From positions 1-64,000 of the forward strand of contig JAGCWW010000082.1 of assembly GCA_017961685.1 (NCBI GenBank): a stretch of DNA of 64,000 bases, written 5' to 3'. A program made the position numbers and the translations under genes. Shown here one piece after another: positions 5,589 to 47,271 of the stretch. Position 1 is the first letter of the stretch. Each line of letters begins with the position of its first letter. Below the pieces are notes generated by a model. The model made no database searches. It was not told where the DNA came from and saw only the letters and a list, made by a program, of their open reading frames with translations. The DNA comes from Acholeplasmatales bacterium (GTDB lineage Bacteria > Bacillota_I > Bacilli_A > Acholeplasmatales > JAEDCM01).

Positions 5589-6371
5589 CTATCCAACATT
5601 TGAAAACCATTCACTAACGCAATAATAATTATCTATCTTGATTGTTAATTTATTGATAAAAGCTATAAACACATATACAACAGTCGTAAAATATCTATAT
5701 ATTACATATTTATTATCTTCATCATTTATTCTTTCGTTATACTTATTAATATAATCTATGACTAATTTTGGATGTTCCATAACATTTAGTTCATCAAAAT
5801 CATTTTTGTTTTTGTCAAGATAATATATACATAGTTTTTCAAAATTATCCACAATATAATCATTAATACTTTTCTTATTTGCGTTATAGTATTCGTTCAA
5901 AACTTTTTTATAATCTTTTATATGCTTAAATCTTTCTTCTTTTCTACTAGTATCAAAATCACCTAATACTTCTATGCATGGTGAAGATAACAGTAATAGC
6001 CCTGATGATGTTTCATCATTAAATTTAGAAAACATTTCATTAATATCTTCACAATCATTATGATCAACATCATACATTAAAAATATTCCTTGAAATAATT
6101 CACTATGAATACTTAATAGTTTCTCAAATGAATCAGTGTTCTCATTATATACTTTTAAGAAGTCATGTATTCTATTTCTAGGTCCTTCAATTATAACTAC
6201 ATTATTCTTTTCGTTTTCAAATTCTAATTCAGATAATTGATTAAAATTTTCAAAATCTAATTTTTCATCACATTTTATTACATTATATCCATATTTTTCT
6301 AGAACTCTTTTAAATATTGTTGGTTCAGTTTTTTCACCTTCAACTATTAACAAAAACCTATTCTTCGCCAT
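5589..6371 (-). CDS. TOPRIM-domain protein (RloB/AbiLii/OLD-like putative nuclease)
   Basis: The N-terminus FLLIVEGEKTEPTIF (6-20) carries the TOPRIM glutamate. MYDVDHND (99-106) supplies the DxD metal motif, and SSPCIEVLGD (129-138) matches the conserved SxPCxE block of RloB-like proteins. At 260 aa the protein is family-sized. Its start overlaps the upstream ATPase gene by 14 bp, the usual coupling of ATPase-TOPRIM pairs such as RloA-RloB, AbiL and PARIS (AriA-AriB). In those families the ATPase restrains the nuclease until infection. Nuclease activity here is inferred. A related protein is encoded at 38305-39045. Confidence 0.82.
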   Translation of the reverse strand: MAKNRFLLIVEGEKTEPTIFKRVLEKYGYNVIKCDEKLDFENFNQLSELEFENEKNNVVIIEGPRNRIHDFLKVYNENTDSFEKLLSIHSELFQGIFLMYDVDHNDCEDINEMFSKFNDETSSGLLLLSSPCIEVLGDFDTSRKEERFKHIKDYKKVLNEYYNANKKSINDYIVDNFEKLCIYYLDKNKNDFDELNVMEHPKLVIDYINKYNERINDEDNKYVIYRYFTTVVYVFIAFINKLTIKIDNYYCVSEWFSNVG

Positions 6372-7506
6372 TTATTGCCTCATCAAACATAGCAGACAAA
6401 TACATCTTTTCAATATTATTAACTTCTCTAATATTTTGATAGATGTTTGATAGTCTACAATATTTAGATTTTCCTTCATACCATTTTGCGAAATATATTT
6501 GATCTGGTCTTAATAATTGTAAAATATATGTATTATGTGATGAGAAGAATACTTGTATATTCTTTGATTTTATTACATTTAAAAATGATTTAATTGCACT
6601 AGGATGTAAAGCTTGTTCTAATTCATCAATAAATATAATACCATTTTCAGGCATAGATAAAAGAATTGATAGCATTACACTTTGATTTTTCATACCTTCT
6701 GATATGAATTCAAATGGTAATTCTCCTTTGAAATCTTTGCCTTCAATTTCAATAAAATATTTATTAGTTTCCATAATATTAGCTGTTCTTAAAGGCTTTT
6801 TAACAATTGAATATATTGGAAACTCATTATATCCTTTTAATATTTCTTTTACTTCTTCTGATTTGTTAACAAGCAAATCTAGGAAATTAACATCATTAAA
6901 AATTCTTGATCTTACAAAAGCGCCTCTGGAAATAAACGCTGGTGTTATTATTGTATATGAACTTATATATGTATAAGCTTTTTGTATATCATCATCATTT
7001 ATTTCACTTGAAGCAAGGCTTCTTAATGTCGATATTAATGTTGAGACATCTTGAACTTTTCTATTCTTTTTTCTATAAATAAAATTATTTAAATCACGTT
7101 CAAAAACAACATCGTTAGATGCTTTTAAAAATTCTTTAACTATTCCTTTGAAGCTTGATGTTTGAATAAAGTAATTATATTCAATATTCCCTATTTTAAA
7201 GAATAATTCTACACTTCCTCTTACCAATTCATCATTCTTTTTTGTGCTTCTATTGTATGTATCAAACAAAAAGTTATTTACAATAAATGGTCTAAGATTT
7301 GTAGCTGGTTCATTCATTAAAGCAACAAGTTGTTCCATTGTTCTAATAACAGATGTTTTACCACTACCATTATGTCCATAAATAGCAACAGGATTAACTA
7401 TTGTTCCATTTACATTATCTTCTAAAAATTTATATTTATCTTTTTTAAAATCTATCTCACATGTATCAATTGAATTTACATTTTTTATTATGATTTTTTC
7501 TAACAT
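6358..7506 (-). CDS. AAA/ABC-type ATPase of an RloA/AbiL/PARIS-like pair
   Basis: This 382-aa ATPase opens LEKIIIKNVNSI, as RecF/AAA_15-type proteins do. It has Walker A GHNGSGKT (44-51), a Walker B IIFIDELEQALHP and an H-switch FFSSHN, then LLRPDQIYF and a conserved NIEKMYLSAMF tail. Start ATG 7506 is chosen over an upstream one because GAGGTGA lies 5 bases before it; this also matches the length of its homologue at 39026-40165. It leads an operon with the TOPRIM, PHP-ATPase and 99-aa genes. The likely role is a sensor or regulator ATPase holding the TOPRIM effector. Confidence 0.85.
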   Translation of the reverse strand: MLEKIIIKNVNSIDTCEIDFKKDKYKFLEDNVNGTIVNPVAIYGHNGSGKTSVIRTMEQLVALMNEPATNLRPFIVNNFLFDTYNRSTKKNDELVRGSVELFFKIGNIEYNYFIQTSSFKGIVKEFLKASNDVVFERDLNNFIYRKKNRKVQDVSTLISTLRSLASSEINDDDIQKAYTYISSYTIITPAFISRGAFVRSRIFNDVNFLDLLVNKSEEVKEILKGYNEFPIYSIVKKPLRTANIMETNKYFIEIEGKDFKGELPFEFISEGMKNQSVMLSILLSMPENGIIFIDELEQALHPSAIKSFLNVIKSKNIQVFFSSHNTYILQLLRPDQIYFAKWYEGKSKYCRLSNIYQNIREVNNIEKMYLSAMFDEAINGEE

Positions 7507-7520
7507 AACTTCACCTCTTC

Positions 7521-7592
7521 TGTATATTTTATACACTTAATATTATAACACATTTTTTTGTTATTTCAATCGTGAAATGTATATTTTATACA
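7521..7592 (-). promoter_or_regulatory. Promoter with two identical palindromic operators for the ATPase-TOPRIM-PHP operon
   Basis: The -35 TTGAAA (7569-7564), 16-bp spacer and TATAAT (7547-7542) read toward the ATPase gene. The exact palindrome TGTATATTTTATACA (6-bp arms, TTT centre) occurs twice: at 7521-7535 over the expected start point and at 7578-7592 just above the -35. Two identical sites on either side of a promoter suggest repression by a dimeric regulator. No matching regulator is obvious nearby. Confidence 0.65.
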
Positions 7593-36147: not shown

Positions 36148-36585
36148 TTAATTATTATCCTTAACAAATGAAGGTTGTGTTATTATTGCATTACCATTAT
36201 TTTGCATTGTTATGCTTGAAATTAATGCAGACGCTCTAGCGCTAACTCTAACCATATTTATTGCTTTCTCAATTTTAATATTTACTAAATCTTTTAATTC
36301 ATCTAGTTTTCCTTCATATTCCTTAGTAGTTTTAATATCAAATTTAATTTGCACTTTATAAGATACATCAATTGAAAACATTACATCAGGTTCAAAAAAA
36401 ACACTTCTATTATAAACGAAGCTGAATCCTTTCGAATCAACATTAATAATATCATAAGAATCTTTCACAATTACTTTAAAATTACCAGCATTTGAACTAA
36501 TGTTTTTTTTCGCTTCATATTTTACATTATCTAAATCAATTATTGCAGAATTTAAATATATTAATTTTTCTTTCTCGTTTTCCAT
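36148..36585 (-). CDS. SecB-like chaperone of a HicAB-linked TAC module
   Basis: This 145-aa protein starts at ATG 36585 with AAGGAGAG upstream. A central beta-rich segment, then a C-terminal VRVSARASALISSITMQNN with ITQPSF, resemble SecB-like chaperones (RxxISxxT..G...I..P). It lies 11 bp after hicB on the same strand. In TAC systems a SecB-like protein folds the unstable antitoxin and holds the toxin in check. Identity to E. coli SecB is low, and no secretion role is needed. The context raises confidence. Confidence 0.7.
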   Translation of the reverse strand: MENEKEKLIYLNSAIIDLDNVKYEAKKNISSNAGNFKVIVKDSYDIINVDSKGFSFVYNRSVFFEPDVMFSIDVSYKVQIKFDIKTTKEYEGKLDELKDLVNIKIEKAINMVRVSARASALISSITMQNNGNAIITQPSFVKDNN

Positions 36586-36596
36586 AATTACTCTCC

Positions 36597-37094
36597 TTAA
36601 CAATTAAAGTTAGCTAACGATATTTTTTGTCCATTTGAAAAATCAAGTTTATCCTTTATACCGTTATCAAACTTTTTAACATCAAAATAAGATTGAAGGC
36701 ATTCCATTAAATATTCTAATTGATTAATATAAACTTTTTCATAAACACTAGAATTTAAATATGTTATAATTGCTTCATTTAAAAAAGAATTAAGGCTAAC
36801 TCCTTCTTGTTTTGCACGTTCATCAACTTTTTTGTGCAAAGATTTAGACATTCTTAATGTTACTTTGCCACTAAACTCGTTATCTTCATGTTTTGATGGA
36901 GAAGGAACATCAATATTATTTTCTTTACAATATTCCAAAAATACTTCTAGATTTCCTTCAGCTTCTTTTATAGCATCTTCTACAGTATCACCAACACCTA
37001 TTACTGTATCTAAATCATAATAACTGGCGACAAATACCTTATCACCTTCACCACTATATTCAGTATATACCTCAAATCTGTAATCTGTATTCAT
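36597..37094 (-). CDS. hicB: HicB-family antitoxin with ribbon-helix-helix domain and C-terminal extension
   Basis: This 165-aa antitoxin has the HicB RNase-H-like fold at 1-60 (FVASYYDLDTVIGVGDTVEDAIKEAEGNLEVFLEYC). An RHH DNA-binding domain lies at 75-113 (GKVTLRMSKSLHKKVDERAKQEGVSLNSFLNEAI). The tail of about 52 residues (114-165) is longer than usual and ends ISLANFNC. In TAC systems such a tail is the chaperone-addiction (ChAD) segment, and here secB follows at once. It lies 2 bp after hicA. Confidence 0.88.
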   Translation of the reverse strand: MNTDYRFEVYTEYSGEGDKVFVASYYDLDTVIGVGDTVEDAIKEAEGNLEVFLEYCKENNIDVPSPSKHEDNEFSGKVTLRMSKSLHKKVDERAKQEGVSLNSFLNEAIITYLNSSVYEKVYINQLEYLMECLQSYFDVKKFDNGIKDKLDFSNGQKISLANFNC

Positions 37095-37096
37095 AA

Positions 37097-37354
37097 TTAT
37101 TCCTCCTTATTATCAACAATTATTTTATTCAATTTTTGTAAATAAACAAAACTTACCGTCTTCCCATTTTTCGAAGGAATCACATATGGTCTTGACAAAT
37201 CTTCTCGTGTTGCTATTATGTGAGATCCCTTGCCCCTCTTTTCGTTTATAATAAAACCATAATGCTCCAAATATTTTTTAAAATCATCAAGTGATACTTC
37301 TTTAGGAAGAGGTGATTTTTGAAAATACTCTATTAATTTATCAATACTCGCCAA
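37097..37354 (-). CDS. hicA: HicA-family mRNA interferase toxin
   Basis: This 85-aa toxin has the dsRBD-like fold with the catalytic GSH (KRGKGSHIIA), preceded by VSLDDFKKYLEHYGF. It would cut mRNA independent of the ribosome. The start is TTG (37354), with GGAGGAG six bases upstream and no better ATG. It is first in the operon, then hicB and the secB-like gene. Slight length excess over minimal HicA (about 60) is at the C-terminus. Confidence 0.9.
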   Translation of the reverse strand: MASIDKLIEYFQKSPLPKEVSLDDFKKYLEHYGFIINEKRGKGSHIIATREDLSRPYVIPSKNGKTVSFVYLQKLNKIIVDNKEE

Positions 37355-38304: not shown

Positions 38305-39045
38305 TTACAATTCAACGATACCTAAGTCAACAAATGACACAAATAGCATTGAAAGTAAAATATATCTGTTATATTTTTCATATTCCTTTTCTTCATAATT
38401 GAATATTTTTATATTACAATCTTTAAAATTATCTAAAAAAGATAAACTAAAATCTTCCTTCAAAATATCCTTAATTTTTTTAAAAAAATAATTCAATCCT
38501 TCTTTTAGATTATCTAATTTTACTTGATATTTTATACATTCAAAATCTTCCTTTAATTCTTTTGAAGACAATACATCTTTATTATCTTTATTGCAATTAT
38601 AATAAAAGCTTTGAATACAAGGATAACTCATCAATAGCAATCCATTTTTATTAATTCCGTTGTCTCTTGAGTTTACATATAATTTCATCTTATCATTAAT
38701 TGCTTTAGGCCTATTTGAATCTCTGTCTCTATCAAATAAAATATATATTGCTGAATTTTCAGAATCTAATTCATATTTACTAAGTTTTCTAAATATATTA
38801 TCAAAATAATCATCATCAATATCAAACTTTTTAATTGATGAATATTCTGCAGGAATAACAAACACTCTCGAATATTTATTATTCTTACTTTTTAATTCAA
38901 TTATTTGATTAGTTCTTTTATCGTAATTGACAATACTATAATCAAACACTTTTGAAAATAAATTTTTTAATAATTCAACTTCATCCTTATCTCCCTCAAC
39001 CACAAAAATTACTCTTCCTATGTTTTTACATTTGTTTATCCTCAT
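38305..39045 (-). CDS. TOPRIM-domain protein, partner of the adjacent ATPase (RloB/AbiLii-like)
   Basis: This protein of about 246 aa starts VIFVVEGDKDEVELL, giving the TOPRIM glutamate. YILFDRDRDSN is the DxD motif, and LLLMSYPCIQSF is the SxPCxE-like block also found in the homologue at 5589-6371. The start at ATG 39045 is internal to the ATPase gene end (20-bp overlap); a GTG at 39063 is an alternative. It is the probable effector nuclease of the pair. Paralogy with the other pair is inferred from shared motifs. Confidence 0.78.
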   Translation of the reverse strand: MRINKCKNIGRVIFVVEGDKDEVELLKNLFSKVFDYSIVNYDKRTNQIIELKSKNNKYSRVFVIPAEYSSIKKFDIDDDYFDNIFRKLSKYELDSENSAIYILFDRDRDSNRPKAINDKMKLYVNSRDNGINKNGLLLMSYPCIQSFYYNCNKDNKDVLSSKELKEDFECIKYQVKLDNLKEGLNYFFKKIKDILKEDFSLSFLDNFKDCNIKIFNYEEKEYEKYNRYILLSMLFVSFVDLGIVEL

Positions 39046-40165
39046 ATTGTGGAATACCACCAAATATACCAGCCAAATACATCTTTTCTAAATTTTGACT
39101 TTCTCTAGGTTTTTCATCAGAAAATTTCTTTAAAAAACTTCCATTTTTGTCAAAATCAACTGAATATATTTGATCAGGTCTTAGTAAATTAGTAGAAAGT
39201 AAATTTGTGGAATGTGAAACAAAAATTAACTGTGCATTTTTAGAATGCTTGAAAAAATACTTAACTAAAAGAGCTTCTAAATTATTATGTAGCCCACTAC
39301 TAAATTCATCAATTGCAAATATTCCACCATTTTTTACAACACTTAAAAATGAAGGCAAGATATTTAAAAGGACTTGATTACCGTTTGATTCCAAAGGAAA
39401 TGGAATATCAGCAAGTTCTTCTCTAACAAAGATTATATTTAAAAATGGATTTTGTAATAAACCATTTTTCTTTTCATATTTAATTTTATAAGGAAAATCA
39501 AATTCTTCAAAAAAATTATTAATTTCATCTGCTCCATTTTTTTCTAGATATAAGATTAATTCATAATCATTAATTCTTGCCTTATCAAAAAGAACAATTT
39601 TTCCAATTTGTCTTAAAGGATTATAATACAATGAGTTTTTTAAGAAATTAAACCAATCTCTTAGATCAGTATAATTAGTAAACTTTGTATTAAAATAAAT
39701 ATTTTTTAAAAATAAATTATTTTCATCTATATCATTTTTCCCGTAATCCTTGTTTTCTGTGATTTTTGATTCAGCTGAGTTTAATGTTCTAAATAATTTG
39801 TTTTCTCCATTTACAGCAAGTGTTTCTTTTGTTATTTGATTATTTCTATTGAATTCAAAATAATATACTATTTCGCTATTATTTATTTCAAAAGTATATT
39901 CAAAATACATAGTTTTTTCATTATTGTATAAAGTGAATAAAGTAGGATTAACAGTAGTATCAATAAATAACAAATCTAGAAGTAATGTTATAGATAATAA
40001 TGCACTAGTTTTACCTGATGCATTAGATCCATAAAAGCAACATCCTTTAAGAATATCATTATAAACGTTTGTATCTTGTAAAATCATAGATTTACTTGAA
40101 TCAAACGAAATAATTGTTTCCTTTGTAAATGATTTAAAATTCTTAAATCTTACTTTTTTTAACAT
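39026..40165 (-). CDS. AAA/ABC-type ATPase of a second RloA/AbiL-like pair
   Basis: This 379-aa protein opens KKVRFKNFKSFTKETIISF. Walker A is GSNASGKTS, Walker B is GIFAIDEFSSGLH and the H-switch is IFVSHS. It ends LLRPDQIYSVDFD then LEKMYLAGIFGGIP, very like the ATPase at 6358. ATG 40165 is chosen because GAGGTGA lies 5 bases before it. It overlaps its TOPRIM partner. The likely role is phage sensing and control of the nuclease. Confidence 0.83.
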   Translation of the reverse strand: MLKKVRFKNFKSFTKETIISFDSSKSMILQDTNVYNDILKGCCFYGSNASGKTSALLSITLLLDLLFIDTTVNPTLFTLYNNEKTMYFEYTFEINNSEIVYYFEFNRNNQITKETLAVNGENKLFRTLNSAESKITENKDYGKNDIDENNLFLKNIYFNTKFTNYTDLRDWFNFLKNSLYYNPLRQIGKIVLFDKARINDYELILYLEKNGADEINNFFEEFDFPYKIKYEKKNGLLQNPFLNIIFVREELADIPFPLESNGNQVLLNILPSFLSVVKNGGIFAIDEFSSGLHNNLEALLVKYFFKHSKNAQLIFVSHSTNLLSTNLLRPDQIYSVDFDKNGSFLKKFSDEKPRESQNLEKMYLAGIFGGIPQYEDKQM

Positions 40166-40182
40166 ATACCTCACCTCTTATT

Positions 40183-40227: not shown

Positions 40228-40315
40228 ATTTTTTTACATTTGTTTATAGTTTAAATGGATTATTTTAACACTATTCAGTTGCCCACAAAATGTAGACAAC
40301 TGAAAAATTATCCTC

Positions 40316-40720
40316 TTATTCTTCAAATCCGGCTTCACGCGCTAAAGCTACTGCATTAATAATTGGTATTTGTATAGGAACAAAACCAGGTTGCGTTGTT
40401 ACTATTGATATTTGACTCCTAAGGTAAGGAAACATAATTGCTAAAGAGTTAACATGTAATAAATATTTTGAGACTTTTTTATCTTCTATATCACGTGTAA
40501 CAAAATTTCCTTTAAGTTCAATATCAATACTTATTTCTTCTTTTTTTGATTTAGCTAAATATTTTAATACAACGATTATCTCATTATCATCGATTTCTTC
40601 ATAACGAACATCAAAAGAACCCATTATGTCTAAATTGTTAGGCAAATCAAATGACCTTTTTACAGAAATGTTTGTAAAAGCCATATTCTTTAGCATCAAA
40701 TTACTATTTATTGTATCCAT
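40316..40720 (-). CDS. SecB-like chaperone of a HigBA-linked TAC module
   Basis: This 134-aa protein has beta strands with SFDVRYEEIDDNEIIVVLKYLAK and DIELKGNFVTRD, then the C-terminal PYLRSQISIVTTQPGFVPIQIPIINAVAL. That PYxRxxIS..T...G..P...P.IN pattern is a clear SecB-family feature. It follows higA by 10 bp on the same strand. As in other TAC systems it probably folds the antitoxin. A general SecB secretion role is unlikely in a Gram-positive. Confidence 0.82.
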   Translation of the reverse strand: MDTINSNLMLKNMAFTNISVKRSFDLPNNLDIMGSFDVRYEEIDDNEIIVVLKYLAKSKKEEISIDIELKGNFVTRDIEDKKVSKYLLHVNSLAIMFPYLRSQISIVTTQPGFVPIQIPIINAVALAREAGFEE

Positions 40721-40730
40721 ATAATTACCT

Positions 40731-41054
40731 CTAAATTGCTAATAAATAGCTACTATTTGGTAGCTCATATTCAGCATTAACTTTATATGATTTTTCTACA
40801 CTAACATTATCTGTTATTGAATAATATGAATCATAATCTATTTGAGCTTTTAGCAAACTTTCTGCTGGATACCCTGTAGCTTTTTCAAAAGCAGCAGCTA
40901 TTTTTTTTGTAATAGTCCTTTTTCCGTGTAATATATTACTTATCACTGTTTTATTCATACTCATCTCTTCAGATAGCCATTTTTGACTTTTGCCAAGTGA
41001 TAGCAATATACTTTTCATTATTTCACTTGGATGAACCCTATAATTTTTATTCAT
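40731..41054 (-). CDS. higA: HigA-family antitoxin (XRE helix-turn-helix)
   Basis: This 107-aa protein starts at ATG 41054 with GGAGGG upstream. It has YRVHPSEIMKSILLSLGKSQKWLSEEMSMNKTVISNILHGKRTITKKIAAAFEKATGYP, the VapI/HigA HTH pattern (HPGEIL-like start). A C-terminal tail of about 35 residues (SITDNVSVEKSYKV..YELPNSSYLLAI) follows the HTH and could be the chaperone-addiction segment, since a SecB-like gene comes next. Confidence 0.85.
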   Translation of the reverse strand: MNKNYRVHPSEIMKSILLSLGKSQKWLSEEMSMNKTVISNILHGKRTITKKIAAAFEKATGYPAESLLKAQIDYDSYYSITDNVSVEKSYKVNAEYELPNSSYLLAI

Positions 41055-41067
41055 AATTTTGCCCTCC

Positions 41068-41409
41068 TCATTTTTTAAACTTATATCGATGTTCGCTATC
41101 AATATCAACTATTTCTATTTCTTTGCCGTCATCGCTTACAATAATTATTATCATTCTATCTTTTCTTTTATTTATTTTTGGGACTATCCTTATTGAATAA
41201 TATTTAGTACCAACTATTTTCTCTAAATTATACCCCTTCAAAAAGGCTTTTGCATTAAAATCATATATTGTATCCACACTACCAAAATGGAATAATAATA
41301 CTTTTAAATTCTCAATAAGTAATTTATCGTTTTTAAAGTATCTTTGCATTTCATTAACATCATTACAAAGCTTCTCTATTTTTTTATTTTTATACTTTAA
41401 AATTATCAT
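41068..41409 (-). CDS. higB: HigB/RelE-like toxin
   Basis: This 113-aa protein fits the HigB plasmid-maintenance killer fold. It has a helical start, LLIENLKVLLFHFGSVDTIYDF, then beta strands TKYYSIRIVPKINKRKDRMIIIIVSDDGKEIEIVDIDSEHRY. It lies first in the operon (toxin before antitoxin), as usual for HigBA. It probably cuts mRNA on the ribosome. Start ATG 41409 has AGAAAGGAG upstream. Strict assignment to HigB rather than a related RelE group rests on the HigA-type partner. Confidence 0.75.
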   Translation of the reverse strand: MIILKYKNKKIEKLCNDVNEMQRYFKNDKLLIENLKVLLFHFGSVDTIYDFNAKAFLKGYNLEKIVGTKYYSIRIVPKINKRKDRMIIIIVSDDGKEIEIVDIDSEHRYKFKK

Positions 41410-41436
41410 AATACTCCTTTCTTGATAGTCATATAT

Positions 41437-41465
41437 ATTTTATCACTATTTAGGAGATAATACAA
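41437..41465 (-). promoter_or_regulatory. Likely higBA-secB promoter
   Basis: TTGTAT (41465-41460), a 17-bp spacer and TAAAAT (41442-41437) point into higB. The match to consensus is moderate. Confidence 0.5.
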
Positions 41466-41507
41466 CAAAAAGTTGACAAAAAATGTTAACTTTTTTCGCT
41501 ATAAAAA

Positions 41508-41529
41508 ACCAAGTTATTTATTTCTTGGT
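41508..41529 (-). terminator. Terminator of the DEAD-box helicase gene
   Basis: ACCAAG and CTTGGT form a stem overlapping the stop codon, followed by TTTTTTA on the minus strand. Confidence 0.75.
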
Positions 41530-44444: not shown

Positions 44445-44463
44445 GAAGAGCTTTTCACTCTTC
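44445..44463 (-). terminator. Terminator of the abiEii gene
   Basis: GAAGAG and CTCTTC form a 6-bp stem around 7 bases, followed by a run of T on the minus strand. It is nearly the same as that after fic. Confidence 0.75.
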
Positions 44464-44481
44464 ATTAGTTTATAAATATCA

Positions 44482-45393
44482 TTATTTTATTTTCTTATAG
44501 GTAAATACATCTGTTTTAAGTAATTTGGATATTCCATTATCAATTGCATCATTATAAGAATAATCTTCATATAATAATTGTTTTGTTATTGATGAATAAT
44601 CTTTTTCATAAAACCTTGTATCTATAATCTCTTTTAGCATATTATTTATATCATAATCTAGATTTGCTGATGGATTATTTTTTGATGTCATTCTATCATC
44701 TCTTACCTCATCAATAAGCTCATCAAGATTATTATCAATTTTTATATATGGCATAATTTTGGCTATATCATATAAATGTCTTGAATCTCTATCTTCCATA
44801 TTTTGTATCTTATAATCACAGATAGCAAAAACTTTATCAATGAATGTTCTTTCTAGCGTTTGAACATTCATAGAAAAATTCAGTGGAAAGAAAAAAGGAA
44901 GATTAGCATTCTTATTATCTAAATAATCAGAAACATAACTATTTATCTTATGCTTTATAACTGGATATACTTTTAGATAATAACTTGTTTCAATTATTAT
45001 TTCTTGCTTTTCATTGCTAAACAAGGAATCAAATTTAAATATATATTTGTTATAACTGTATCTTGTTTTTATCATATCAGGATTTTCAAGAACAAAGCCA
45101 AGCTTATCTGCAATCCTTAAAATAATCTCATTAGATTTTCTTCTTTCACTTTCTGTTGGCTTTTTATCCATTGATAAATCAATATCTTCAGAGAATCTAT
45201 TGATTAATTTATATGCTTTAGATAAAGAAGTTCCGCCTTTAAAAACAAAAGGCAAATCTTCTTTAGATATTTCATATAAGAATAAAGTTTGAACAGCATC
45301 CTTTTCAACAGTAGTTCTTAGCATATTTTCATCTCTTGCGATTGTTTTTATTATATCTGTCCATTCATCTTTATAATTATCATACCAATTCAT
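44482..45393 (-). CDS. abiEii: AbiEii-family nucleotidyltransferase toxin (type IV toxin-antitoxin)
   Basis: This 303-aa protein has FKGGTSLSKAYKLINRFSEDIDLSMD, the GGTSL..SxDIDL motif of the AbiEii/MenT nucleotidyltransferase family. The helical second half shows FIDKVFAICDYK. AbiEii-type toxins transfer nucleotides (for example onto tRNA 3' ends) to stop growth during phage infection. It overlaps its antitoxin gene by 14 bp. Confidence 0.92.
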   Translation of the reverse strand: MNWYDNYKDEWTDIIKTIARDENMLRTTVEKDAVQTLFLYEISKEDLPFVFKGGTSLSKAYKLINRFSEDIDLSMDKKPTESERRKSNEIILRIADKLGFVLENPDMIKTRYSYNKYIFKFDSLFSNEKQEIIIETSYYLKVYPVIKHKINSYVSDYLDNKNANLPFFFPLNFSMNVQTLERTFIDKVFAICDYKIQNMEDRDSRHLYDIAKIMPYIKIDNNLDELIDEVRDDRMTSKNNPSANLDYDINNMLKEIIDTRFYEKDYSSITKQLLYEDYSYNDAIDNGISKLLKTDVFTYKKIK

Positions 45394-45997
45394 TCATTAA
45401 ACCTCCTTCATATATATTTTTATAAACTATGTTTGGATATAGTGGTAAATACTTTTTAACTATATCAAAATTAATATTCTTGTCTTGAACGTATTTTCTT
45501 AGTTTGCTTCTATATTCTTCTCCTTTAAGCTCTGAATATTTATCTATAACAGACATTAAATCTAAAAATTCTAATTCATTGATATTTTCATCTGTAATCT
45601 GTGCAACAGGTTTATAAACAATCATTTTATAACCATCAATCTCTATTTTCCTTTGTTTTGTTGTAGCGGCATTAGAACATATTTCAAAAACACTTGGATT
45701 TTGTGTTGTAAAACCATATTTATTAACTAGCATGTATCCTGTGATAAAGCCTTCTTTTTTTCCGTTATTAAATAAATACTTCTTATCAATAAAATCTTCT
45801 ATATACATCTTACCCTCAGTCCCAAAAGATGTTTTATATGAATAATAATAAACACCATTATAAACTCTAACTAGTTTTTTATTATCAGTTAGTCTTTTCA
45901 TTTCCTGTCTTACAACTTCTTTTGAACTACCAGGTATTTCGTTTAAAAAAATGGGTTCACCTTTTTTGAAATTATTAATGATATATTCATAGATCAT
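45380..45997 (-). CDS. abiEi: AbiEi-like antitoxin / transcription regulator
   Basis: This 205-aa protein has an N-terminal winged helix (VVRQEMKRLTDNKKLVRVYNGVYYYSYKT) and a C-terminal domain typical of AbiEi antitoxins. It heads the type IV pair, and its end overlaps abiEii. Such antitoxins repress their own promoter and counter the toxin without a stable complex. The start at ATG 45997 has GAGGTGAT upstream. Confidence 0.85.
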   Translation of the reverse strand: MIYEYIINNFKKGEPIFLNEIPGSSKEVVRQEMKRLTDNKKLVRVYNGVYYYSYKTSFGTEGKMYIEDFIDKKYLFNNGKKEGFITGYMLVNKYGFTTQNPSVFEICSNAATTKQRKIEIDGYKMIVYKPVAQITDENINELEFLDLMSVIDKYSELKGEEYRSKLRKYVQDKNINFDIVKKYLPLYPNIVYKNIYEGGLMNELV

Positions 45998-46081
45998 GTT
46001 ATCACCTCACAAATTAGAAAATAATTATTTCAATTTTATTATATAACATGAATCTTATCTTTTCAACTCATATGTTAAAAA

Positions 46082-46100
46082 GAAGAGTTTTTCACTCTTC
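46082..46100 (-). terminator. Terminator of the fic gene
   Basis: GAAGAG and CTCTTC form a stem around 7 bases, with a weak T run on the minus strand. Confidence 0.65.
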
Positions 46101-46106
46101 AATCAT

Positions 46107-47153
46107 TTATTTTCTAATATATCTTGTGTCTCTACCTTCACCTATTTTTTTAATTAGGTTATTTTTAAGCATTTTAGTTAAAACAGCTTCTATTGTTGTT
46201 ATAGATATATCTGGTAATATTTCACTAATTTCTTTTTTTGAAATAGGAAGTAAACTATTTAGGATAGTAGCTTCTATTCTTGTTGTTTTATTAATCTTTT
46301 TACTATTTACTGTTGCAAAACGTTTATCAAGTTCTTTATAACAAGTAAATAAATTCACTAAGAAATTGTCAACAAAATAGAAATAGTTGTTATTATTCTC
46401 ATGCCAGTTAGTGGATGATTTTTTTAAATCATCATAATAATATACTTCCGTTTTATTTACTTGTTCTTCAAATGAAATATATTTACCTGCATCAAAGCCA
46501 GCTTTATATAATAATAGCAAAGTTAGCAATCTTGACATTCTTCCATTTCCATCATTAAACGGATGGATACACAAGAAGTCAAGAATTACACATGGGATTA
46601 ATAATATTTGATTTATCTTAGGATTACTTCTTGCATCCATATATGCTAAAACTAATTGTTCCATAGCTTCTTTTGTTTTGCTTGCTTCAACTGGAGTAAA
46701 ACGAATACTACGTTTTCCGCCACTAGCAATTTCAATTATTAAATTATCATGATCTTTATATTTTCCTGCACTGTTTGAACTAGAAATCTTAAGCATTTGT
46801 TCATGAAGTGATAAAATATTTGCTTCTGTAAAATCTAAGTCATTATAATTATTATGAATAATATTTAAAGCATCTCTATATCCTGCTATTTCTTCTTCAT
46901 TGTGGTTAAGAGGTGCACTACTATTACTAACGATTGCTTTTATTCTTTCATCCGATGTAACTATACCTTCAATAGCGTTAGATCCTTTAACTGATTGTAT
47001 TATAGCTATTTTTTCTAATTCAGTATAAATATTTGGAAAATTATTTTTTCTATGATCGTTATTAGCTTTCATTGTATATATACTTGTTAGAATATTTACA
47101 ATTTCCCCTGGAATATTTTGTAATTCAAGGAAAGAATAATCAAATTTATGCAT
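46107..47153 (-). CDS. Fic-domain protein (likely class II, AMPylator family)
   Basis: This protein of about 348 aa starts at ATG 47153; the longer frame upstream has no ribosome site. The core motif HPFNDGNGRMSR has the catalytic His and all phosphate-loop residues. The N-terminal SNAIEG matches the [S/T]xxxE[G/N] autoinhibition motif. A C-terminal winged helix (LPISKKEISEILPDISITTIEAVLTKMLKNN) suggests DNA binding. Fic proteins modify target proteins with AMP. The target is unknown. TGCATA boxes in the promoter could be bound by its own HTH. Confidence 0.92.
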   Translation of the reverse strand: MHKFDYSFLELQNIPGEIVNILTSIYTMKANNDHRKNNFPNIYTELEKIAIIQSVKGSNAIEGIVTSDERIKAIVSNSSAPLNHNEEEIAGYRDALNIIHNNYNDLDFTEANILSLHEQMLKISSSNSAGKYKDHDNLIIEIASGGKRSIRFTPVEASKTKEAMEQLVLAYMDARSNPKINQILLIPCVILDFLCIHPFNDGNGRMSRLLTLLLLYKAGFDAGKYISFEEQVNKTEVYYYDDLKKSSTNWHENNNNYFYFVDNFLVNLFTCYKELDKRFATVNSKKINKTTRIEATILNSLLPISKKEISEILPDISITTIEAVLTKMLKNNLIKKIGEGRDTRYIRK

Positions 47154-47168
47154 ATAATCACTTCTTTC

Positions 47169-47271
47169 TGCATATATTTTAGCATTTTTTATGCATAAAG
47201 GCAACTCTAACTGCATATTTTTCTTAATATTTTATGCAGAAAACCTATTTTTAATAATAATTATATGCATA
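47169..47271 (-). promoter_or_regulatory. fic promoter with five TGCATA/TATGCA boxes
   Basis: TTGCCT-17-TAAAAT (-10 at 47181-47176) reads toward fic. The core TGCATA recurs at 47169, 47191 (within TTATGCATAA), 47212, 47233 (inverted) and 47264 (TATGCATA). The CTGCATA/TATGCAG pair (47211-47217, 47233-47239) is a 7-bp dyad. Clustering suggests an autoregulatory site. Confidence 0.5.

Follow-up and report, generated by a model that had tools for sequence, protein, structure and literature searches.

Our analysis of a 64,000-nucleotide stretch of Acholeplasmatales DNA (hereafter the window) indicates that three adjacent genes, HigB-HigA-SecB1, likely make up an operon of the type II toxin-antitoxin-chaperone (TAC) kind, with its three parts, and that this operon is probably an accessory, horizontally gained element in a small, defence-rich insertion site. 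The trio that the initial annotation had recognised at 40316-41465 is real, and this span comprises the operon together with part of its upstream region. Three intact reading frames on the minus strand follow each other in the order toxin, HigA, SecB1 with gaps of only 13 and 10 nt, and each gene is preceded by a purine-rich ribosome site. They encode a HigB-like toxin of 113 aa (41068..41409 including the stop; ORF 41071-41409), a HigA antitoxin of 107 aa (40731..41054 including the stop; ORF 40734-41054) and SecB1, a TAC-type SecB-like chaperone of 134 aa (40316..40720 including the stop; ORF 40319-40720). For HigA we used the start at 41054; the TTG start listed at 41108 is unnecessary. The intergenic leader of higBA-secB (41410..41513, minus strand) carries the AG-rich ribosome site AAAGGAG immediately 5′ of the toxin ATG as well as a 12-nt inverted repeat (41467-41478/41484-41495, 92% complementary), a possible operator or, alternatively, terminator of the gene upstream.

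The toxin is strongly diverged: neither Pfam nor NCBIfam offered a useful model match, and PF05015 at its curated cut-off matched neither the window toxin nor any other protein of its own genome. Comparison by hhalign with a HigB-like (PF05015-type) profile built without the window sequence gave a probability of 94.3% (P 1e-7), compared with 0.1% for a Gp49-type HigB profile and 0.4% for a HicA profile; this profile is partly circular, as most of its members were found using the window toxin or a profile containing it, and one member (L079) was found independently, by PF05015. Weak matches in genome searches were proteins of 115-127 aa adjoining HigA-type genes, one of which (L039) reached 25.3 bits against PF05015 (cut-off 27). 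A single-sequence structure model of the toxin was of low confidence (pLDDT 55) and gave no informative structural match, and no close relatives were found in the viral, genome and plasmid collections. At the profile level, the toxin is best placed with the HigB (PF05015) toxins as a strongly diverged member, and at this level the name HigB, initially a guess, holds.

HigA contains an HTH_3 domain (26 bits, above the cut-off) and matches TIGR02607 with 39.3 bits (E 4e-10), short of the curated cut-off of 47.7. The TIGR02607 match stops at residue 75 of 107, leaving a C-terminal tail of about 30 aa which ends in NSSYLLAI. Such an extension past the family domain is characteristic of TAC antitoxins, and the tail is a candidate chaperone-addiction and degron region. 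It showed no motif in common with the M. tuberculosis ChAD peptide; the published ChADs are not known to share one. A search of 392 genomes of the phylum with HigA returned only itself at E 1e-14, and none was found in viral contigs.

SecB1 scored 40.9 bits against the Pfam SecB model PF02556 (gathering cut-off 26). A profile built from SecB1 and its relatives also connects to SecBs of solved structure and, weakly (E 0.03), to M. tuberculosis Rv1957. SecB1 also matches the PADLOC model PD-T4-9_C (1.8e-16); this match was rejected as a sign of a CmdTAC chaperone because the model also matches solitary and MqsRA-linked SecBs. Within the order, SecB1-like matches occur in 27 of 160 genomes, many of them solitary in conserved places and others beside Gp49-type HigBA or MqsRA; none was found in two same-genus genomes, nor in plasmids. 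The named genome and viral collections contributed 19 relatives, all of which have an antitoxin-like ORF directly upstream and most of which also adjoin a toxin-like ORF. The partners are mostly ADP-ribosyltransferase-like toxins or an unnamed pair of 140 aa and 220 aa (toxin labels assigned by eye). A tree of 43 SecBs placed SecB1 in a 12-member clade (support 95/99) whose members are all linked to an antitoxin or a toxin-antitoxin pair, apart from the solitary, Gp49-linked and MqsRA-linked SecBs of its own order, with its exact position in the clade unsure due to a long branch. Chaperones of ADP-ribosyltransferase-type TACs (L057, L058) are among its nearest relatives; by sequence, SecB1 groups with chaperones of TACs bearing unlike toxins. 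The initial annotation had named SecB homologues lying away from toxin-antitoxin genes as one of two observations that would speak against the module. This is partly borne out: many genomes of this order do have such homologues, but the clade of SecB1 itself is linked throughout.

Among the wider SecB-like genes, we noted that several of the solitary copies in monoderm-like genomes (L009, L014, L017, L030 and others) lie near rplM-rpsI. We also observed a recurrent operon (L059-L066, where L063 is the same as L003) that encodes a protein of 136-178 aa, a second of 186-250 aa and a SecB-like chaperone. The middle protein mostly ends in AA and has only a weak PD-T4-10_B match; in the examples that were scanned, no Pfam model scored above its cut-off. 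Judged from its sequence, this operon is possibly an undescribed TAC type.

The first alternative to a TAC is a plain HigBA pair with a self-folding antitoxin, the SecB-like gene being there by chance or for another client. Solitary SecB-like genes are indeed common in the order, and the sole close HigBA relative (L032 in genome G438, 350-1000), whose HigA is 47% identical, has no SecB within 350 nt of HigBA although its HigA bears a tail of similar length. However, the toxin of this relative is frameshifted, so that it may have lost a SecB as well, and both the 10-nt spacing of HigA and SecB1 within one operon and the entirely antitoxin-linked clade of SecB1 speak against this explanation, which we consider improbable. 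Somewhat less probable still is a decayed, inactive operon: the strong divergence of the toxin and the frameshifted relic in the relative would fit decay, but the three frames are intact, tightly spaced and equipped with good ribosome sites. That SecB1 serves as a protein-export chaperone is very improbable in spite of its score above the Pfam SecB cut-off, given that the DISFE segment of the E. coli protein, whose D20 and E24 bind SecA, reads NISVK in SecB1, that the host looks like a monoderm of a ClpP-poor, Bacillota-type lineage, and that two same-genus genomes show no SecB1 match.

If HigB-HigA-SecB1 is a TAC, with the SecB-like gene directly linked to the toxin-antitoxin pair as observed, it would be expected to work as follows. 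HigB would be an RNase-like toxin of the RelE superfamily, and HigA would bind it and probably repress the operon. Through its C-terminal tail, HigA would be unstable until SecB1 binds this tail; SecB1 would thereby aid the folding of HigA and hide the tail from a protease. Once unfolded proteins or phage proteins, for instance, titrate SecB1 off, HigA would be degraded and HigB would halt growth. In experimentally studied TACs, the degron lies in the antitoxin tail, which also binds the chaperone, and the antitoxin is degraded when this binding is lost (PMC5105189, PMC6377645, PMC8165232, PMC11618068). By analogy, the capture of the CmdTAC chaperone by a phage protein offers a plausible model for the trigger acting on SecB1.

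A second module lies 3 kb away, as had been proposed. It comprises HicA-HicB-SecB2 (operon at 36151-37354, minus strand): a HicA-like toxin of 85 aa (37097..37354; PF07927 27.6 bits, cut-off 27), a HicB antitoxin of 165 aa with a tail ending in ISLANFNC (36597..37094; PF05534 45.8 bits) and the SecB-like chaperone SecB2 of 145 aa (36148..36585), recognised by hhalign, a low-confidence model and gene order. SecB2 gave no match to PF02556 at the gathering cut-off. In hhalign, SecB2 reached 65% against a SecB profile (control 0.3%), and the top structural matches of its model (low confidence, pLDDT 48) were for the most part SecB and Rv1957 chains (best E 0.01, none at E 0.001). This remote evidence suggests that SecB2 is SecB-like. 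Viral contigs searched with SecB2 gave no match. Since three further genomes from this taxonomic order (L047, L048, L050) carry the trio in the same arrangement, it is supported as a unit, and HicA-HicB-SecB2 is probably a TAC as well, on weaker evidence than HigBA-SecB1.

Anatomy and comparison thus back the proposal of two TAC-type operons with unlike predicted toxins and diverged chaperones. A profile comparison of SecB1 with SecB2 gave only 0.3%, so that the two are not recent duplicates, and SecB2 is a separate lineage; a tandem duplication was rejected, as both the chaperones and the toxins are unrelated. As to whether the pair co-occurs in relatives, both TAC types are combined only in this genome among 160 genomes of the order, and one further genome (G026) carries a HicAB-SecB2 operon and a solitary SecB on another contig.

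The two TACs flank an nfo-like gene, one on each side. Here, 3.2 kb separate the nfo-like gene from a DEAD-box gene and contain HigBA-SecB1 and an AbiL-like ATPase pair, whereas in the same-genus genome G145 the two flanking genes are about 35 bp apart. This near-empty site retains, within its short spacer, a hairpin like that found directly 3′ of secB1 (40274..40304, minus strand). Another genome, G144, has a different insert at the DEAD-box/nfo-like site, with a different ATPase (PADLOC PDC-S01), and on the other side a different gene 277 bp after the nfo-like gene, with no HicAB there. Based on the positions of the two TACs on opposite sides of the nfo-like gene and on the contents of the site in G145 and G144, they were probably acquired separately. 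The window holds two AbiL-like pairs of an AAA ATPase and a partner (38305-40174 and 5589-7536), the former directly downstream of the HigBA-SecB operon. Furthermore, a 2.8-kb segment at 44447-47268, 3 kb from the TAC, encodes AbiEi-AbiEii and a SoFic-like (Fic) protein; missing in G145, it is another defence insertion.

The tails of the antitoxins raise the question of which protease acts on them. A C-terminal Ala is found in 20 of 34 TAC antitoxins, compared with 16 of 288 other ORFs (Fisher 1.5e-13, uncorrected for relatedness), with 8/11 in CmdA-like, 7/8 in the 220-aa type, 4/6 in the Xre type and 1/4 in HicB antitoxins; MqsA (0/3) and HigA here together with the L076 antitoxin (0/2) have none. 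In sequence, the hydrophobic-Ala tails of several antitoxin families resemble protease tags and appear degron-like. HigA ends in LLAI, and Ala-Ile is listed as a possible ClpX-type end (PMC8165232). ClpP is present in 37 of the 160 genomes of the order and was not found in this genome or in two genus-mates (72-83% complete), which weakens a simple ClpXP degron model. The genome carries two tmRNA genes (L098, L099) with tags that both end in Cys (MNAAFAC and QANYAFC), and HicB, ending in LANFNC, is the only one of 61 window ORFs with a C-terminal Cys. Because no ClpP was found and the tmRNA tags end in Cys like HicB, the protease of the TAC antitoxins here is probably not ClpXP. With its Cys end, HicB hints at a degron suited to a different protease, perhaps Lon. 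Extended to both modules, it would imply that a ClpP-less lineage independently gained two TACs whose tails imitate the host's altered (Lon-type) tmRNA tag, which we regard as improbable. In two further genomes, an antitoxin tail ...RQTYLA is compatible with the tag ...TQTLAFA (G002) and a tail ...CQVC is not compatible with ...NLQLAA (G015), so that the idea stays weak. If true, the degron of a TAC would have to match the local protease while the chaperone hides it.

The initial annotation saw in the pair a direct test of chaperone specificity and cross-talk. The novelty of such a test was overstated: a 2016 study of other HigA, HicB and MqsA TACs already covered chaperone specificity and cross-talk by swapping chaperones, and also transferred addiction through tail swaps (PMC5105189), so that the main principle is already in print. 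The presence of two TAC or AC modules in a single genome had been described in 2014 (PMC4257090). What the locus adds is two unrelated TACs that naturally share a cell, so that chaperone cross-talk can be asked about in their own host, beyond plasmids. Moreover, our comparisons suggest that SecB lineages change their toxin-antitoxin partners and that protease-tag-like ends are shared by TAC antitoxins of several families.

Among known systems, HigB1-HigA1-SecBTA of M. tuberculosis (Rv1955-Rv1957) has the same toxin-antitoxin-SecB order with a SecB-like chaperone, and HigA1 is likewise an HTH antitoxin with a C-terminal extension whose last two residues are hydrophobic (VA, compared with AI in the HigA here). 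In contrast, the chaperones are only remotely similar (E 0.03), the WHR...Y peptide of HigA1 is absent from the tail here, and the M. tuberculosis system uses ClpXP, whereas no ClpP was found here. By description, HigBA-SecB of Geobacter lovleyi (Glov-TAC) is also of the HigBA type; its antitoxin is short (115 aa compared with 107 here) and has a functional chaperone-addiction tail of about 30 aa, similar to the roughly 30-aa extension of HigA, but its host is unrelated (PMC5105189). HicA-HicB-SecB2 has the architecture described for HicAB-SecB of Methylomonas methanica (Mmet-TAC, PMC5105189), although the divergence of SecB2 puts it out of reach of the Pfam SecB model. CmdTAC / PD-T4-9 (PMC11618068, PMC9519451) resembles our system in that the nearest chaperones of SecB1 include those of ADP-ribosyltransferase-type TACs, but its toxin and antitoxin are unrelated, since the operon here encodes HigBA rather than an ADP-ribosyltransferase and CmdA and has no CmdT. 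Overall, HigBA-SecB1 is a diverged addition to the known TAC class, with an unusual combination of partners and a second module close by as its natural pair.
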